In this document: positions 52,621 through 63,961 of the stretch, piece by piece
Layout of the letters: every line of letters starts with the position of its first letter
Position numbering within the stretch: the stretch's first letter is position 1
From: Arthrinium phaeospermum
Lineage: Eukaryota; Ascomycota; Sordariomycetes; Amphisphaeriales; Apiosporaceae
Reading direction: 5' to 3'
Assembly (NCBI GenBank): GCA_006503535.1
Contig: QYRS01000012.1
Location: forward strand, 186,001 to 250,000
DNA: 64,000 nt
Notes under the pieces: model-generated
Database searches by the model: none
What the model saw: the letters and a program-made list of their open reading frames with translations, nothing else
What the model was told of the DNA's origin: nothing
Position numbers and translations under genes: made by a program

Positions 52621-53323
52621 ATGAAGACACTGGGCCTCCTCGGAGGCATGAGTTGGGAGTCGACAGTCACCTATTACCAGGAAATCAATCGGCGCGTGCG
52701 CTCCGTGAAAGGCGGCCTGCACTCCGCGCCGTGGTCTACTCTTTCGACTTCGCCCATATCGAAGCGCTCCAACACGCCGGCGAATGGACCGAAGCGGGCC
52801 GACTGCTGGAAGAGGCGGCGGCGTCCCTCCAACGCGCGGGCGCCGAGGGCATCGTCCTGTGCACCAACACATGCACTCGGTCTCGCAAGGCATTGAGGCT
52901 GCTGCACATCGATCCGACCGCCCAGCGCATCGTTGGTGCGGGTTTCCGGACCGTGGGCTTGCTGGGTACCCGGTTCACCATGGAGCAGGACTTCTATGTG
53001 GCGCGCCTGCGCGACAAGTTCGGTCTTACGGTGGTGCCGGACGAAGCGGGGCGCGGGGTGGTGCACGACATCATCTACCAGGAGCTGTGCAACGGCATCG
53101 TCCAGGAACCCTCGCGCGAGACGTACTACCGGTTATCGCGAGCCTCAAGTCGGCGGGCGCCGAATGTTTGATCCTCGGTTGCACCGAGATTGGACTGCTG
53201 CTGGATGAGAAAGAGGTCGAGCAGCGCTGTGGATTGCCCCTCTTTGATACTACCAAGATTCATGCCGTGGCGGCCGCAGACTGGGCGATGGAGGCTGGTG
53301 ACCAACAGAGACAGAGAGGCTGA
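52621..53323 (+). pseudogene. Aspartate/glutamate racemase family (YgeA-like), frame-broken
   Basis: The protein starts MKTLGLLGGMSWESTVTYYQ, the canonical N terminus of the bacterial-type Asp/Glu racemase family. It continues in other frames with YSFDFAHIEALQHAGEW, GRLLEEAAASLQRAGAEGIVLCTNT (first catalytic Cys), GLLGTRFTMEQDFYVARL, AGAECLILGCTEIGLLL (second catalytic Cys) and LPLFDTTKIHA. About 235 residues would be expected, as in YgeA. Frame changes occur near 52729 and 53130. Just after CTNT the segment following the first Cys is in another frame for about ten codons (MHSVSQGIEA is visible there) before returning. The two catalytic cysteines are still present. Possible bacterial origin. 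Confidence 0.8.
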
Positions 53324-53874
53324 TGTGAGCAACACAAAGACAAAATACGCCTGATCGATGTGGTCGGGTCTAGCTTTTGACTTGAGAAACGAAACAAATC
53401 TTGAGTTTATTTTCCCATGCCTAAAGATCAGCCTGCTTCTTGATGCTGATTGGCGTTTTGTTGCCTCGAGGAATTCTTCGGATGTTCCTCTGACAGCTAG
53501 AGTGGAACAGGGGGTTGCAGTACGGTGGGTTGGGGGCTCTCTAGCGCCCGTCAAAGTAATGCGCCCAGCAGCGCGGGCGGCTGTGCAAGGGGGGTTTAAA
53601 CTCCACTGGCCAGCCCGCGACCCCCTGACGCAGAGTGTCTCAGGACATCAAAAACAGAATGCGCTGGCCGACCTTTTCCTTTTCTTCCCTTTCCTCTTCT
53701 TTCCCACCTCCATTCCAAGCAGCACCGTTGACGGTTGAATTGATTTCAATACTCAACTTCTTTTCTTTAACCCCTCTTTTTTCCCCTTTTCAATTCTCAC
53801 GTTCTCTTCTTGACTCCGCCAGTCGGTAGTTCTCCCTCCCTCCACCCCTGTTCATTCACTTTACCAGCAAAATC
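53324..53874. other. Intergenic region
   Basis: Ends in a long pyrimidine-rich tract (53680-53860) typical of a fungal promoter/5' leader for the gene at 53875. Confidence 0.5.
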
Positions 53875-54628
53875 ATGGATCCCCCTTCTGCCGCCATGCC
53901 GATAGCTCGCTCGGCCCCGTCATTCCCGCCGGCTGCCGGATGGCCACGGGCGAGAGCTTCGACTTCACCCTCCTGTTCGAGCAGGTCGCCCTCACCATCG
54001 TGCCCTGCGGCTTGTTCCTGACCGGCGCGCTTCTGCGCGTTGGGTACCTGCACGAGGCCCGCCGCGTCTGCGAGGCCGACTGGAAGCACCAAGCCAAGCT
54101 GACCGCGGCGTCGTTCTACGCCCTCCTCAAGGCGGCCGTCCTCGTGCTCTGGTGCCTGCCCTCCGCCTCGTCGGGCCTCCTCTCGGGCGCCTCGGTGACG
54201 TCGGCCGTCTTCGCCCTCCTCGTCGCCGTCACGCTGCCGGCCGTCTCCCACTACGAGCACACCCGCACCGCCCAGCCGTCCATCCTGCTGTCGGCCTACC
54301 TCAACTTCACCTTCATGTTCGACGCCGCGATCGCCAGGACGCTCTGGCTGACGCAGACGTCTCCGCAGCTGCCCGCCGTCTTCACGGCCGCCTGGCCGTC
54401 AAGGGCGCGCTGCTCCTGCTCGAGGCGGCCGCCAAGACGCCCCTGACGGCGGCGCGCGGAAAGGCTGCGCCGCCCGAGTCCCTGGGCTCCGTCTACTTCC
54501 AGGGCTTCTTCGGCTGGACTACTCCCCTGGTTTGGTCGCGGTCCCGGGGCGCCATTGACCTCGAGGACCTCGAGGCTTTGGACGGGGCATCTGAGAAATC
54601 AGGCCGTCCTGTGTCGCCGAAGGCGTGA
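53875..54628 (+). pseudogene. N-terminal TMD0 piece of an ABCC (MRP-type) transporter
   Basis: Reads, across frame changes near 53888 and 54391, as the N terminus of a fungal ABCC multidrug transporter. It has the conserved ADSSLGPVIPAGCR ... FDFTLLFEQ start, then five membrane helices (ALTIVPCGLFLTGALLRVGYL, FYALLKAAVLVLWCL, AVFALLVAVTLPAVSHYEH, ILLSAYLNFTFMFDAA and LAVKGALLLLEAAAK). The linker GSVYFQGFFGWTTPLVW and DLEDLEALD is the usual entry to TMD1. The frame then stops (54626-54628). About 1200 residues with TMD1, both nucleotide-binding domains and TMD2 are absent downstream. Either a truncated relic or a TMD0-only protein. Confidence 0.75.
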
Positions 54629-55167
54629 GCAGCGTACAATGCCAGCCCCATCTTTGACTAATGGTGATTCTCTGTTCGGATCACGGTTGAGTCTCTTCAG
54701 GCCCCTGTAGCACGGCCATGTGCATCGGGTCGAGCTCGACGCCGCAGTCTCCAATAATGTGGATGCGTTATGGGACTTCGTTTGGATATGAGATACCGCC
54801 ATATCCCACAGCGAAAGCCGGCACGTACAATCAGATAGCTGTGGGTCTAGCCCCCATCTGCTATCGCGGGTATCAAGCCCTACCAGCCTAGCTAGATGAT
54901 GCCAATGACATTGCTTTTTCCAAGTTCTTCAATGTGTTCCTGCCTGTCTTCCCTCTTGCATGTTCTATAAATAGGAGCGACCACTTATCTGGTCTCCTCC
55001 AAGCGACGGGTTCATTTGGCGTTGAAGTCGACTCGATTCGAATTGACCACCGTCTGCTTTCGTGACGGCACCGTCTAGTTCAGTCTCTCGTTTCTTTGCC
55101 TGTGTCTGAGGTCTATCAACCACACAAGTATTCCCTTCCCCAGGCCGAAGCCACTTCGCCAATTGAG
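54629..55167. other. Intergenic region
   Basis: No remnant of the missing ABC transporter domains was found here. Nothing else is visible. Confidence 0.5.
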
Positions 55168-55480
55168 ATGGCAGACAACCGTGAAGAGGAAGACGAAGAT
55201 AAGGCGGACAGCGTCACTCTACTCGGATCTGCCCAGTCACAACCAATGCCCCGCCCTGCAAAGTAACGGTCAAGTGCCGCATCTAAAGCCGATTGACTGC
55301 CAGTCCCGTCACCTAGTCCACGCCGCACCGTGGGACCCATTCGTGGCCCTGAACTACCTCTGGGGCAAAGACACGACTGATTTCGCGGAAGCGAATCGCG
55401 CCTACCCAGCCTTACCAGAAAGCCCCCCACGGTTGGTTCAGGACTCCACCACAGCGGTTATCGGACTGAGTATCAGGTAA
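55168..55480 (+). pseudogene. HET-domain fragment
   Basis: WDPFVALNYLWG, DFAEANRAYPALPESPPRLVQDSTTAVIGLS matches the beginning of a heterokaryon-incompatibility (HET) domain, with the usual ALSYxWG-like and LP..P..I.D...V...L blocks. An upstream frame in a different register begins MADNREEEDEDKAD. The domain stops after LSIR at a GTAAGG donor-like site with no continuation in the following DNA. Likely a truncated copy. Confidence 0.6.
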
Positions 55481-55558
55481 GGTTTCATTTTCAATACGTT
55501 TATATGAAGCGGGCTATGCGAGTGAGTTGAAAAAGAGTCCATATCGCGGAAGTAACCT

Positions 55559-56682
55559 TTACATGACTGTTGCAGGCAGATCCGCCACTGCCGCAGCAGA
55601 GGCTCCCTCGATCTTGACAGGCACTGCTTCCGTAGCCACCGCTATGGCCTTCGAACCCTTCATATCTTTTTGCAGCCTCCTCTCGGCCATCGTGACCGCT
55701 ACATCAAACGCATTCTGCATGCTCTTGACCGACGCCAAGTTCTTCCCGACAATATCAAACGCCGTCCCGTGCGCCGGCGTGGCCACGGGGATGGGCAAGC
55801 CGCCCTGCACCGTGACGCCCCCGTCGAAGCCCAGCAGCTTCATGGCGATCTGGCCCTGGTCGTGGTACATGGTGACGATGGCGTCGAACCGCTCGCGCTT
55901 GAGGAAGATGGTGTCGCAGGGGAAGGGCCCTTCGACGTCGATGCCCCGGGCGCGCGCCAGTCCCACGGCGGGCCCGATGTGGTCGAGCTCGTGGCGGCCA
56001 AAGGCCCCCGCCTCGCCGGCGTGCGGGTTCAGCGCGCACACCCCCAGGCGGGGCTTCGCGATTCCGGACTCCCAGCGCAGCCGGTGCGTCAGCTCGAGGG
56101 TCTCGAGGACCGAGGCCATGGTGACGCGCGCCGCGACGTCTTCGAGGCCGACGTGGCTCGTCACGCGGCTCGTCCACAGGTCTGGGCCTGCGATGTTGAT
56201 CTCGCTCGTGCGGCCTTTGAAGCCCAGCTGGTTCGTGAACCAGCGCAACTCGTCCTCTTCCGCCATCCCGCCTGCTTCAGGGAACTCTTGTTCAAGGGCG
56301 CGAACACGATGGCGTCGACCTCGCCCGCCTGCGCCAGCTCGAGGGCCCGTTTCAGTTGGTGCAGGGAGCGCGCGCCGCTGTCTTTGGAGACCTCGCCCCG
56401 CGTCACGTCGGGGTACTCGGGTGCGCTGCCGTCGTCCAGGACCTTCACACCTCCCTGGGGTTTTGCCACCGCGCCACCTTCTTCGCACAGGGCGATGTCT
56501 ACGCCGCCAGCCTCTTGCATGGCCGAAACCAGTTCGGACTTGTCGGCCAGCACCACGATGTCGGCCCGTTGCTGATTGGCTGGATTGCTGAGAAGTTTGG
56601 CGGCGACTTCGGGCCCGATACCTGACGGGTCGCCGAGCGTGACGGCGATCCGCGGTCTGCGTGGCTGCAACTCCGAGTCCAT
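55559..56682 (-). CDS. PdxA2-like 4-phospho-threonate/erythronate dehydrogenase, one frame break
   Basis: About 374 residues once one base is allowed for near 56268. The N-terminal part has IAVTLGDPSGIGPEVAAKLL, then VDAIVFAPLNKSSLKQAG. The frame then changes to MAEEDELRWFTNQLGF, SRVTSHVGLEDVAARVT, ALNPHAGEAGAFGRHE, MYHDQGQIAMKLLGFDGGVTVQGGLPIPVATPAHGTAFDIVG. These are the PdxA-family NAD- and metal-binding motifs (GDPxGIGPE, NPHAGExG, YHDQG, HGTAxDI). Bacterial PdxA acts in pyridoxal phosphate synthesis, but fungi use the PDX1/PDX2 route, so a PdxA2-type sugar-acid phosphate catabolic role is more likely. The start is the ATG at 56682; the longer frame starts with GTG. It diverges from the MFS transporter gene. 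Confidence 0.85.
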
Positions 56683-57335
56683 TGTGTTTCTGGTTGCAAT
56701 TGAGTCGAGTGTGGTGCGAGCCGAAAGTTTCTCCACCGATGTGGCAATTGGGACGTCACCAGGCGAATACGGTCGTATGGTTCAGCAAATATCTCGTTCC
56801 GATACTAAGCAGCTAGTTGAGATTCGAAATCGGACGAAGATCTCAGTGGCGCCGGCACTTTCACCGACGAATGCACAACACCGCCCTTTTAATAACGAAT
56901 GTCCATCTCTTGGAGCACCCCAATGGCAATGACATAAGCATTCTGCATGAGAAAAATGGTTTGCATGCGGATGATTGGCCGATACCCCTCAGTAAGCTCT
57001 CCCCATGCATTGGGTGTTGGTGATACAGCGGCTTTCTCCAGCAAACCCAGAGATATGGCGGCCTCTGAAAACAGCCGACAACCGGTCCCTCTCCAGCGCC
57101 AAGAGCTTGGTCGAACGTTGCACTGCCTCTCCCCGGCATACACCATGATGCATGGGCAATACCCCACAGTCAAGGGGAGCGCAAAGTGTTACCACGACTA
57201 AGTAGATAGCGAAGGCTTGCATTCTCCAAGCAGCCGAGATTGGAAGGACCGTCACTCCTGATAGACAATATTGACTGCTGAATTGACCCCCAACCAATCA
57301 AGGTCACTCGCCAATATCGCATCAATTCGATCACC
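56683..57335. promoter_or_regulatory. Divergent spacer, PdxA2-like and MFS genes
   Basis: 653 nt between divergently transcribed genes, so both promoters are expected here. Frames in this spacer lack motifs. Confidence 0.45.
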
Positions 57336-59044
57336 ATGACAGCGTATGTTGACCCCAGTCATGATAAGAGTATTGGGGGGCAAATTGAAGATGCTGTTGC
57401 ACTCGAAGTGAGTGAAGCCTCCGCCGACGCGGATCATGCCCAAAGACTCGCTGCTCAATGGGTCGAGGGAACGGCCGAGGAAGAGAGATTGAGACGGAGG
57501 CTGGACTGGCGCATCATCCCATGCACATGGATTCTCTATCTGCTCGGGTATCTCGACAGATCAAATATCGGGTACGTATACTCCACGGTTTTCACATGGT
57601 GTGAGAATCGCAATCCGCTAACCATGGCCTATCCTGCCATCAGAAACGCGAAGACGGGCGGTCTGGCACGAGACTACGACATGAGCTCGGGTCAGTACTC
57701 CATCATCGTTTTGGTCTTTTTCATCTCCTACCTGATCTTCGAAGTCCCCGCCAACATGATCATCATGCGTGTCCGACCGAGTGTATTCCTTCCCGGGCTC
57801 GGCGTCATTTGGGGCACATTCGCAGCTCTGATGGGTGCCACCCAGTCTTGGAGCCAACTGGCGGGTCTACGGTTCCTCATGGGTGTTGCCGAGGTATGTA
57901 TCGCGCCAGAGGGCACTGTTGTTCCACCACGGTGACGATATTTGACGATTGACCAGGCTGGATTTGCACCGGGCTCTACCTTCTATCTCAGCTGCTGGTA
58001 TCGCCGGTACGAGCTCGCAACGCGCTACGCGCTCCTCTACACCGCGGTGCCCATTGCGGGAGCCATATCAGGTTTGCTGGCCGGCCTCATCACCCAATAC
58101 ATGGATGGCAGTGCTGGACTGGCTGGTTGGCGTTGGCTTTTCGTAGGTGCACGAATCGAATCGGCGTGAGGAGCACTGGTATGCTAAACAAGACTCCAGA
58201 TTCTTGAAGGCGTTGCATCAGTCATCGCTTCCATAATAATCTTTCTTCTGATGCCCGACTTCCCCTCCAACAGCAAGAGATTCCTGTCCCAACAAGAGTC
58301 ACTCCTAGCTTGTAACCGTCTGGCGGTCGACGGTATCGCTCTGGCTCAGGGTGCCGGGGGCGAAAGAATCCCCACTGGGAGGCTTTCAAGATGACATGCA
58401 GCGATTGGCGAGTCTGGGTGCAGTGCTTCCTCTTCGTGCTCGTCACCGGCGCGCAAACCATGCAGTACTTCATCCCCACCTTGGTGGAAAGCTTCGGGTG
58501 GACTGGGCATACCGGCCAATACTACACCATCCCCGCCTACATGGCCGCGCTCGTGTACGTTCTGGCCTTCTGCTGGCTGGCCGACAGGTACAAGACCAAG
58601 TGGCAGTTCATCTGCGGCCTGTCGGGTCTGGGCTGCATCCTCTTCATCGCGGTTACGACGACGCCGCACAGCAAGGTGGCGCAGTACGTGCTGACCATCT
58701 TCGCCTTCGGGACCATCTATGGGTGCTCCCCTCTGGTCAAGACGTGGGTATCGGACGTGATTCCCCAGCCGGCGGCGAAAAGGGCCGTGGCCATTGCACT
58801 CATCAATGCCATTGGCAATGCTTCGTCCATCTACTCGACCTGGCTGTGGCCCGACAAGGACGCGCCTCGCTATATCCCTGGCTTTGTCACCACTACCACC
58901 TGGCTGGGAGTCCTGAGCCTCAGTACCGTTGGTGCGGCGTACTTCTTCAACAATCATCCCGTCCAGCGCGCGAGTCACTTGGACACCATGTCCGCGGAGC
59001 TCAAAGCGCGCAGAGAAGCCGGTACGAGGACCCTGCGAGTTTAG
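57336..59044 (+). CDS. MFS transporter, anion:cation symporter (Dal5-like), one frame break
   Basis: Exons 57336-57571, 57644-57893, 57957-58142 and 58201-59044 join in frame (introns 72, 63 and 58 nt); about 505 residues. LDWRIIPCTWILYLLGYLDRSNIGNAK is the helix-1 signature of the allantoate/nicotinate (ACS) family. It is followed by YDMSSGQYSIIVLVFFISYLIFEVPAN, LRFLMGVAEAGFAPGSTFYLSCWYRRYELATRYAL, GWRWLFILEG and, after a one-base frame change near 58369, HWEAFKMTCSDWRVW and six further helices. Such carriers import organic acids, vitamins or amides with protons. Divergence from the PdxA2-like gene suggests uptake of the sugar acid that pathway uses. Confidence 0.85.
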
Positions 59045-61037: not shown

Positions 61038-61452
61038 ATGAAGGGTCTATTCGCCTTGGCACTCCTCTCGGCTTTCGCAGGCCTTGGGCTGGCTTCGCCT
61101 TTGCAGCAACGCGTATGACCCTGTATTGTAATACTGAGAGACATTCTGGTTGCTTACGATGTGTTGCCAGGGCACCGTTGATGTCCTCAACGGCAACGCT
61201 GGTTGGACACCTCCTCCAGACAAACGAGCAAGTGCACCACGTCCTATCTGACATGGCTTCCAAGTCTTATTGGGATATAGGGAACCGTTGATGTTCTGAA
61301 TGGCAATGCCGGCTGGACCCCGCCACCTGATAAGCGTGTAAGTCGATTGACGCCCCCGAATTGTCACTGTAATGATGCTCACTGGGACCTAGGGTGCTGT
61401 CGATGTGCTCAATGGCAATGCTGGCTGGACCCCTCCCCCAGACAAGTCCTAA
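61038..61452 (+). CDS. Kexin-processed repeat peptide precursor (RiPP precursor)
   Basis: Four exons, all phase 0: 61038-61112, 61171-61227, 61281-61337 and 61393-61452; 82 residues. Exon 1 encodes exactly a signal peptide and short propeptide ending SPLQQR. Each following exon encodes exactly one repeat: GTVDVLNGNAGWTPPPDKR, the same again, and GAVDVLNGNAGWTPPPDKS with stop. The Lys-Arg ends of the first two repeats are kexin sites. Intron 1 has a GTATGA donor, intron 2 a GC-AG pair with the typical GCAAGT donor, intron 3 GTAAGT. Two UstYa-family oxidase genes follow within 0.4 and 1.8 kb, so the released peptides (about 17 residues after Lys-Arg trimming) are probably modified oxidatively, as in ustiloxin, phomopsin and epichloecyclin pathways. 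There is no Tyr or Cys in the repeat; Trp is the only aromatic residue. Confidence 0.9.
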
Positions 61453-61821
61453 AGACCAGACAGAAACGTGGCAAGGACTGATTCTTCAATTCTCCTCTTA
61501 GTTTACTGGATGGAAAAGTTGATAAGAGGCTCTATTCGTTAGGCTTTTGCTGCCACTGGGGTAAACACTCGTTTATGAAAAGTCTCATTATGCTAGTCGA
61601 ATAATCAACATGATGCTTCAACTAAGGCTACCTAGTCGCATGTACTATGACTCCTGGCCTTGCACTTACCGTCATATCTGTTGAAATAATACCGTTGCTA
61701 CCATTGTTACAACTAAGCAGAACCAAAATGCAGGAACACGGGTCTCATAACGACTGTCTATTACCCAGTGACTAACAAGACCAAAATGATACGATTGGCA
61801 AGCCATTGGTATGAGGTGTGT
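61453..61821. other. Convergent intergenic region
   Basis: 3' regions of the precursor and the first UstYa-family gene. Confidence 0.5.
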
Positions 61822-62810
61822 TTAATCTGATGGGTCACTCAGCTCATCTTCGACAAGGACGTCTGCTTGGAAGTCCACGACTGCCTTATGTTCCATAGAC
61901 CATTCCTGGATCTTTTCAAAGTTCCGACAAGAGTGCACGATATCCCCGTGCCCTAGTGCCCGTTGGGCCTTGTTGTTCCACTTCCAAGTGATGACGCTGA
62001 TATCCGAGGCGCACATTATGGCTTCTCGAAGAGCGTCGAGGCAATGGCTGATGTGGTCCCTCCCGTAGGAGCCTTCAACAGGATCGAAGTCGGACGGGTC
62101 TAAGATCGTACGGTAGTGGTCCTGGGCGAGAGAGATTCTAATAGCATTCTGCACAGTGCTTTTAGTAGATATAGGGGCGTACCGAACACAGAAAAGCCAC
62201 AAGACTGTTCCTTACCAGGCAGTGCAGTTGATGAAAGACTGCGAGTTCCCCGATGTAATATCCGTCATCTCCAACGTACGGATATGTATTGTTCGGGAGA
62301 CTTGCTGCTTGCGACTTAGTCAATCGAATGATTCCCATCGCTTGAGAGAATCAGCATCATGTACATAAAAACTGATATTTTGAGGGACGCACAGTCATAC
62401 AGAGCCTTCCATTCAGCATCCAGCTCCGGAGAAGGATCCCCTTGGTACATGGTTTTGTCTTTACCAAATCCCCTGTGAAACTTCTTGATCTCGTACTGGA
62501 TAGCATCTTGAGCGGGCGCTGGTGGTTGACATTCATTTAGCAGGGACAAGTCGAGTAGAAAACGGTCCAGGACATACTCACAGTAGAGTAGCTGAGTTTG
62601 TCCCAAGTCCGTTGATGAATGCCGTATAATAGCTATTGAGAAGAAGATAAGGTTCATAAGAACAGAAACCAGTAGAGTGACTTTAGCCCACAGAGGCAGA
62701 GCCCGCGTTGGGATAGCAGTCGTTCCGTCTTCGATCAGCTTGCATTCCTCTTCTTCTTCGCGGCTCTTGAAGGCCACAAACGGCAGTTTTGGAAAGGCAA
62801 TCGTCCACAT
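61822..62810 (-). CDS. UstYa-family (DUF3328) RiPP oxidase
   Basis: Exons 62810-62393, 62340-62216 and 62148-61822; 289 residues. An acidic cytoplasmic start (SREEEEECKLIEDG) precedes one membrane helix (about 41-62). Then comes the family body: PAQDAIQYEIKKFHRGFGKD, YQGDPSPELDAEW, MGIIRLTKSQAASLPNNTYP and VGDDGYYIGELAVFHQLHCL. Both defining HxxHC motifs are present: HQLHC (176-180) and HISHC (213-217), followed by LREAIMCASDISVITWKWN and HSCRNFEKIQEW. UstYa/UstYb proteins catalyse macrocyclisation and other oxidations of dikaritin cores. The start ATG is the one in frame with this body; an overlapping out-of-frame ATG lies 10 nt upstream. The donor GTGCGT and acceptor TCTCAAG of intron 1 were chosen because they restore the conserved sequence. 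Confidence 0.92.
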
Positions 62811-63239
62811 GTTCACGCATCAATAGGAAAGGAAACTTGGTAGTAGTATGATCCAAGAGATAAGCTCTCTGTATCAAACATTATTTGTCGATGCTGTACA
62901 TGACAGTCCAGAGATGCATCAAACAACTGTGCCATCGCTCGAACAACACAGGGAAGGGGCAGATAGTCTGCACATGCAACCTCTTGAGTCGCCTGCGTCA
63001 ATCAATGGTCATGCGTCGCGTTGTTATATGCAGTTGGCTTCAGCTGCATCGGCTAAATATTGTTTTCTGCAGTTGGCTTTGGCAGACCTCCAACACACCC
63101 CTGCGAGAGGGCTTGACGTCATTTACATGATGCACCGTCAAAGTCGGCAAACTGAGAGTTGAGTCCATCAAGATAGGTAGCTTGAGCAACTTGGGCCTTG
63201 AGATTCAAACAACATCCACACCACGATAAGACAGACAAA
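62811..63239. promoter_or_regulatory. Divergent promoter region of the two UstYa-family genes
   Basis: 429 nt between divergently transcribed oxidase genes, fitting co-regulation. GCAGTTGGCTT occurs twice at about 63030 and 63071 (TGCAGTTGGCTT), a possible direct-repeat site, but no known factor site was recognised. Confidence 0.45.
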
Positions 63240-63961
63240 ATGAACTGTTATTATTCGATTCTTATCCGCTCTATTGTCGTGTTCGCGATCATTGCCACTG
63301 CTCTTCTTGTGGCCTTCAGCACCCACTACGACGTCTCTCGACATGTGTGCAAGACCCTGGGCAAGTCAGCTAATTACGATCAATGTGGCCGGCGTGTCAC
63401 CAAGACCTTTGGCCATGTGGAAGCGCTCGAGGATCTGACCCACGAGGGAGACAAGGCCTGGACGTCAACTCTTATGCCGCCAAACGACGGTTTCATACTC
63501 GTCAAGCATAACGAGACCATGGACCTCAGAGTCGGGATATCCATGTTTCACGCTTTGCATTGCCTCTCATTAGTCAGAGCCGTCCTACAAGACGTCTCTA
63601 GCGAAGACGTGTCGTCGACACATCACCGTGGCCATCACGACCACTTTCTACACCAGACCCACCTGCCACACTGCCTGATGTATATTGCCCAGGTCCGGTC
63701 TACCTCTTACCCGCTATCATCTACAAAATATCTAATACTCTATAGTCGATCATGTGTGCTGGAGACAGCACCCTCGAGCCATCTTGGCTCAGAACTGACA
63801 AGCAAGGCAACATTGTCCTACATGGTGTGGATGGTCTTGGAGTTCAACACCAATGCAAAGACACATCGTTGCTTTGGGATGCTGCCCGGAGGTCGAGTCA
63901 CGGTTCTATACCGTCGTGGGACTTGAAAGCGGGCGATACAGTTGAAAGTGTGTTTGGGTGA
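63240..63961 (+). CDS. Second UstYa-family (DUF3328) RiPP oxidase
   Basis: Exons 63240-63692 and 63746-63961, phase 0; 222 residues, the shorter UstYb-like form. One N-terminal membrane helix (about 8-27) is followed by a lumenal domain with ISMFHALHCLSLVRAVLQ (HALHC, 104-108) and HQTHLPHCLMYIAQSIMCAGDSTLEP (HLPHC, 141-145). A GVQHQCKDTSLLWD segment comes next, with the usual C-terminal WD...W region. The intron (53 nt) has an unusual GTCCGG donor; without splicing the conserved SIMCAGD is lost. Paired with the first DUF3328 protein and the precursor it completes a minimal oxidative RiPP cassette. The window ends 39 nt later, so further cluster genes may lie beyond. Confidence 0.9.

Follow-up and report, generated by a model that had tools for sequence, protein, structure and literature searches.

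Structure of the precursor gene

The analysed window, a 64,000-nucleotide stretch of Arthrinium phaeospermum DNA, carries a gene for a repeat-containing precursor peptide followed by two oxidase genes of the UstYa (DUF3328) family. The source mould is known from bamboo. The precursor gene (61038–61452, + strand) consists of four exons in phase 0 and encodes 82 amino acids after splicing: MKGLFALALLSAFAGLGLASPLQQR, two copies of GTVDVLNGNAGWTPPPDKR and one of GAVDVLNGNAGWTPPPDKS. Exon 1 (61038–61112) translates into the leader, which is hydrophobic and ends in SPLQQR (LAS-PLQQR, judged by eye from the translation) and thus in a single Arg. Exon 2 (61171–61227), identified by translation and as part of a DNA repeat family, encodes repeat 1 with a Kex2-type KR at 61222–61227; exon 3 (61281–61337) encodes repeat 2, identical to repeat 1 at the protein level, with KR at 61332–61337; and exon 4 (61393–61452) encodes repeat 3, followed by the stop codon. 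The three repeats are each 19 residues long and are separated by dibasic Kex2 sites, with KR closing the first two and KS-stop the last. The first-pass annotation had described a signal-peptide-type protein with three 19-residue repeats, two of them ending in Lys-Arg; the spliced precursor bears out the repeats, and its hydrophobic leader is a candidate secretion signal.

We deduced the splicing from homologous proteins and intron signals. All three introns are in phase 0, measure 53–58 bases and have the ends gt..ag, gc..ag and gt..ag, the second thus being of the GC-AG type. The repeat copies were also detected as DNA repeats, with spacings of 110 and 112 nt. Since one exon corresponds to one repeat, the duplicated unit is an intron plus an exon. 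The introns are 52–57% alike; 103, 20 and 14 of 500 shuffles score equally high, and the similarity thus exceeds the shuffled controls weakly at most.

Repeats 1 and 2 differ in 14 of 57 bases, and all 14 differences are synonymous; under equal rates this has a P of about 8e-9. Between repeat 3 and either of the other two, 14 bases differ, nine in synonymous codons and five in changed codons (P about 0.003). In the 48.45 Mb genome a degenerate GWTPPP[D/E] pattern occurs three times, each time within the precursor, and the reversed pattern does not occur; querying the genome with the full-length precursor at E-values up to 1 recovered four matches, which are the four exons. Because both searches match this locus alone, the repeats are more than chance. 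It is scarcely credible that the exons are a pseudogene or a chance repeat and form no gene at all. The GC-AG intron would suit such an explanation, but the exclusively synonymous differences between repeats 1 and 2, the confinement of the core pattern to this locus and the annotated homologous proteins in two further species (see below) argue against it. The synonymous differences, together with the identity across species, point to selection on the precursor core.

Two divergent UstYa-family genes

UstYa1 (PF11807; 61822–62810, − strand) has four exons (62810–62582, 62518–62393, 62340–62216 and 62148–61822) and encodes 268 amino acids. This model replaces a three-exon, 289-aa version in which, judging from the homologs, one intron had been left in. 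UstYa2 (PF11807; 63240–63961, + strand) has two exons (63240–63692 and 63746–63961) and encodes 222 amino acids. UstYa1 lies tail-to-tail with the precursor gene and head-to-head with UstYa2. According to the gene coordinates, the two oxidase genes are separated by a 429-base gap (62811–63239), a possible shared promoter region.

Both proteins score above the PF11807 cut-off. UstYa1 matches the Pfam UstYa profile with an E-value of 4.2e-49 (profile 3–220; 289-aa preliminary model), and UstYa2 with 9.4e-17 over profile positions 123–215 of 220 only. Each protein has two HxxHC motifs, HQLHC and HISHC in UstYa1 and HALHC and HLPHC in UstYa2, so the pair is as first annotated, namely two divergent UstYa-family genes that both carry the two motifs. 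In an alignment of 18 UstYa sequences, the H, H and C of the second motif are invariant and those of the first are nearly so. The structure model of a UstYa1 homolog contains a long N-terminal hydrophobic helix; that of a UstYa2 homolog was too poor in quality for use.

The genome holds at least 24 exon-level UstYa matches, which we grouped by hand into about 18 genes. With about 18 such genes in the genome, chance is an unlikely reason for finding two of them no more than about 2.5 kb from the precursor. A second close pair of UstYa matches lies at C1:5149100–5151316; a scan of 20 kb around that pair flagged no repeat of the Kex2 type.

Homologs and linkage

All homolog searches depend on shared 5-residue words. 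The protein search with the precursor narrowed 1449 candidates to two proteins, PG988_001397 of Apiospora saccharicola and QQS21_008246 of Conoideocrella luteorostrata. Both have two repeats, and the dibasic sites in these homologs are RR and RKR, with RKR in the Conoideocrella protein. The leader of the A. saccharicola protein is identical to that in the window at 18 of 25 positions, and the single Arg ahead of repeat 1 recurs in both homologs (QQR and VER). In the motif DVLNGN[A/S]GWTPPP, 12 of the 13 positions are identical in all seven repeats of the three species, and none of the seven core repeats contains Tyr. That the core hardly varies between two fungal orders points to a conserved role.

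The UstYa1 search gave 38 matches, the best being A. saccharicola PG988_001398 (76% identity with the 289-aa query, 82% with the 268-aa model). Further homologs, 49–69% identical over the aligned part, come from A. aurea, Purpureocillium takamizusanense, three Metarhizium species and Cladobotryum mycophilum. There are also basidiomycete relatives in Gymnopilus, Pleurotus, Cyathus, Suillus and Mycena (about 31–42% over the aligned part), a wider range than that known for the precursor. UstYa2 gave 11 matches, with 77–79% identity in A. saccharicola, A. aurea and one further entry and 44% in Trichoderma evansii. Homologs of both oxidases lie on contigs of equal length in A. aurea (5,303,461) and in another source (350,271).

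The first-pass annotation had named close precursor homologs lacking a DUF3328 neighbor as one observation that would speak against it. By locus tag, the A. saccharicola precursor and UstYa1 homologs are adjacent, and the contigs recorded for the two are equally long. For Conoideocrella no UstYa gene was seen: none of the 49 UstYa1 and UstYa2 matches, 11 of which carry no organism label, is labelled with this genus, and none lies on a contig of the size of that bearing its precursor (88,050). An excerpt of the Conoideocrella genome note gives fungal-RIPP only inside a pooled 'Other' class (PMC12352038). Conversely, the precursor search returned no match in Metarhizium, Purpureocillium or Cladobotryum, genera that do have UstYa1 homologs; precursors this short may be unannotated there. 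The linkage within Apiospora could in part be plain synteny of related genomes.

Comparison with known KEP and DUF3328 systems

In the excerpted sections of the survey by Umemura (2020), 7,878 KEPs are reported, of which 1,758 lie near DUF3328 genes with a peak at the adjacent gene (PMC7329392). Tyr occurs in 65.6% of the repeats of KEPs with DUF3328 versus 38.2% of those without, and W in 20.5% and 24.5%, respectively; three of the seven abundant DUF3328-linked types lack Tyr, among them P-3, which has W and P (PMC7329392). These counts establish that the gene-set class is already known and that Tyr-less members are common. The same sections list 2,560 of the 7,878 KEPs as having no homolog, and 769 of 838 types as having at most 14 members (PMC7329392). 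Like the KEPs that are described there as accompanied by DUF3328, the present locus combines a leader of putative secretory type and KR repeats with UstYa-family genes directly next to them. Compared by description only, its W- and P-containing repeat also resembles type P-3 (#165), 'W accompanied by P', which stands apart from the Tyr types and has DUF3328 nearby in some members (four of seven; PMC7329392). The five P-3 genera given in the survey (Fonsecaea, Cladophialophora, Galerina, Psilocybe and Coprinellus) are, however, absent from our two precursor matches.

The product had been announced as a new oxidized peptide class with an unfamiliar core. None of the papers searched contains the core strings in its main text, in line with the second part of that claim. 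As to the first, neighborhoods of KEP and DUF3328 genes are a class that the survey already describes (PMC7329392), and the product would not be new by kind. The peptide sequence appears to be new, and such gene sets are already known from many fungi.

The survey also bears on whether the peptide is oxidized at all. It could instead be a linear, Kex2-processed secreted signal, pheromone-like or serving in interaction, with the UstYa genes as unrelated neighbors. Many KEPs are released as linear peptides (PMC9769878, PMC7329392; excerpts), 78% lack any DUF3328 gene at a distance of up to 15 genes (PMC7329392), a W- and P-containing core so highly conserved in all seven repeats would suit a signal, and the Conoideocrella precursor is without a visible UstYa partner among the 49 matches. 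Against this, two UstYa genes directly adjoin the precursor here and the first is its neighbor in A. saccharicola too, DUF3328 neighbors are absent from pheromone KEPs with three exceptions in the sections cited (PMC7329392), and no pheromone family appears among the Pfam matches. We consider a linear product improbable.

Comparison with dikaritins, victorin and epichloecyclins

With its UstYa genes, each bearing two HxxHC motifs, beside the precursor, the locus fits a UstYa-type fungal RiPP, a dikaritin in the wide sense, as far as gene content goes. It shares a Kex2-type precursor and UstYa homologs with the dikaritins (ustiloxin, phomopsin and asperipin-2a) and with victorin. In ustiloxins, phomopsins and asperipin the bridged residue is Tyr, which is absent from the core described here, and the 17-residue unit contrasts with short dikaritin cores such as YAIG or YVIP (excerpts of PMC7329392). 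In the strict sense, a dikaritin has a Tyr ring that carries an ether bond, and a Tyr-less core does not qualify. The dikaritin-type signature assigned at first pass thus holds for the repeat precursor beside two UstYa-family oxidases and fails for the strict definition. A nearby tyrosinase or S41 peptidase match, as in the ustiloxin/phomopsin type, is also missing; some known dikaritin clusters are likewise described as having no peptidase (PMC12048977).

Victorin, which like the present core has no Tyr bridge, is reported in an excerpt of PMC9233826 to be cyclized through Phe and Leu; Tyr is thus not essential for such rings. Epichloecyclins (gigA) resemble our system in having a repeat precursor, a DUF3328 protein in the cluster (PMC12048977, in part) and a plant-associated producer. 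They differ in their core and in their ring, which joins Tyr and Ile (PMC9233826, in part).

Neighboring genes

An S53-type peptidase gene begins 711 bases beyond UstYa2, at 64673–66665 in window numbering and hence outside the window. The assignment is based on a pro-kumamolisin activation domain (E 3.3e-33) and on the motifs EANLDAQ and SGGTSASAP, which we take to hold the catalytic residues of such peptidases; the second half of the gene has Peptidase_S8 as its sole match, just below the family cut-off. The first-pass annotation had advised a search for more cluster genes beyond 64000, which brought this peptidase gene to light and no further UstYa match near the cluster on the contig (C12), S41 peptidase or tyrosinase. 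For S41 peptidase the genome gave at least four matches, all on contigs other than C12. Tyrosinase has at least 56 exon-level matches; those on C12 all lie at 1.999 Mb, versus 0.247–0.250 Mb for the cluster. All genome match counts are lower bounds. A single kexin-type P domain was found in the genome.

Downstream, 10 of 35 ORFs of ≥150 aa in 40 kb were tested, one of them cut. Besides the peptidase gene, they matched a P450, a fungal rhodopsin-type protein and two dehydrogenases; four had no match, and no methyltransferase scored above the cut-off in these 10. Upstream, nine of 28 ORFs of ≥150 aa and one shorter ORF were tested. Consecutive ORFs for an Asp/Glu racemase, a PdxA-like protein and an MFS transporter (window 52709–59044) probably form a catabolic cluster.

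The peptidase gene raises the prospect of a larger RiPP cluster in which the S53-type enzyme (64673–66665) trims the N-terminus of the core, an extension of the proposal below and no true rival to it. A pro-kumamolisin gene with both motifs so close to UstYa2 speaks for it. The domain occurs, however, at no fewer than 12 loci in the genome including this one (15 exon-level matches, grouped by hand), and with 11 others the adjacency may be coincidence. We regard the larger cluster as possible, at somewhat less than even chances.

Proposed product and processing

The analysis shows gene structures, oxidase family membership, conservation and, in part, linkage in Apiospora. The locus is real and conserved, its product is most likely a RiPP that UstYa enzymes modify and whose core represents a new family, and we hold with good confidence that it specifies a Kex2-processed, UstYa-modified ribosomal peptide. 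Overall, what the first-pass annotation had observed is confirmed and its interpretation stands in part: the repeat precursor, the two oxidases and the new core remain, and the new class by kind does not.

The leader would direct the peptide into the secretory pathway, where Kex2 would cleave after KR between the repeats and a Kex1-type carboxypeptidase would trim KR, releasing a unit of about GTVDVLNGNAGWTPPPD. The calculated [M+H]+ of this unit is 1709.813 when unmodified, 1707.797 after loss of 2H and 1705.782 after loss of 4H; for the third repeat, GAVDVLNGNAGWTPPPDKS, it is 1894.929. A single Arg, as found ahead of repeat 1, is a poor Kex2 site, which suggests less efficient release of repeat 1 or the action of another protease. 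The two UstYa proteins, probably membrane-anchored, would oxidize the peptide inside the secretory pathway, and the S53-type peptidase next door may trim its ends. Since the core has no Tyr, oxidation would most likely fall on Trp and on unactivated carbons in Val, Leu, Asn or Pro. UstYa enzymes oxidize unactivated carbons, and their best-described rings sit on Tyr (PMC7329392, PMC9233826). The minimal trio with its conserved Tyr-less Trp/Pro core offers a small system for asking how UstYa enzymes act without Tyr. More tentatively, and with the odds rather against it, the divergent pair might introduce an oxidative crosslink centred on Trp, or oxidize the Tyr-less, Pro-rich core in some other way; the outcome would be a deeply conserved peptide family (DVLNGN[A/S]GWTPPP), common to plant-associated Apiospora and insect-pathogenic Hypocreales, that acts on a conserved target and not as a diversifying toxin.

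A second repeat precursor in the genome

The main text of an A. phaeospermum transcriptome paper contains no match to DUF3328, ustiloxin or RiPP (PMC8705590). In excerpts of two other reports, two RiPP clusters are predicted in A. arundinis (PMC10999098) and some in A. malaysiana (PMC12202052).

A scan of 10 of the 15 other UstYa loci revealed a second repeat precursor at about C8:1,171,873–1,172,919, with a candidate start codon at a distance of about 2.8 kb from the UstYa match (C8:1168727–1169107); the scan is thus able to detect KEPs. Eight CACCACAAGG (HHK) sites occur in this precursor, in repeats of which REPHHKGVKGGKKNNKR is an example, and by description it is similar to two di-histidine types, G-3 and G-8, in the excerpted survey (PMC7329392). 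Its repeats seem to be interrupted by introns, as judged by eye from frame changes and gt/ag signals in two copies, and intron-split repeats are therefore apparently not unique to the GTVDVLNGNAGWTPPPDKR precursor.
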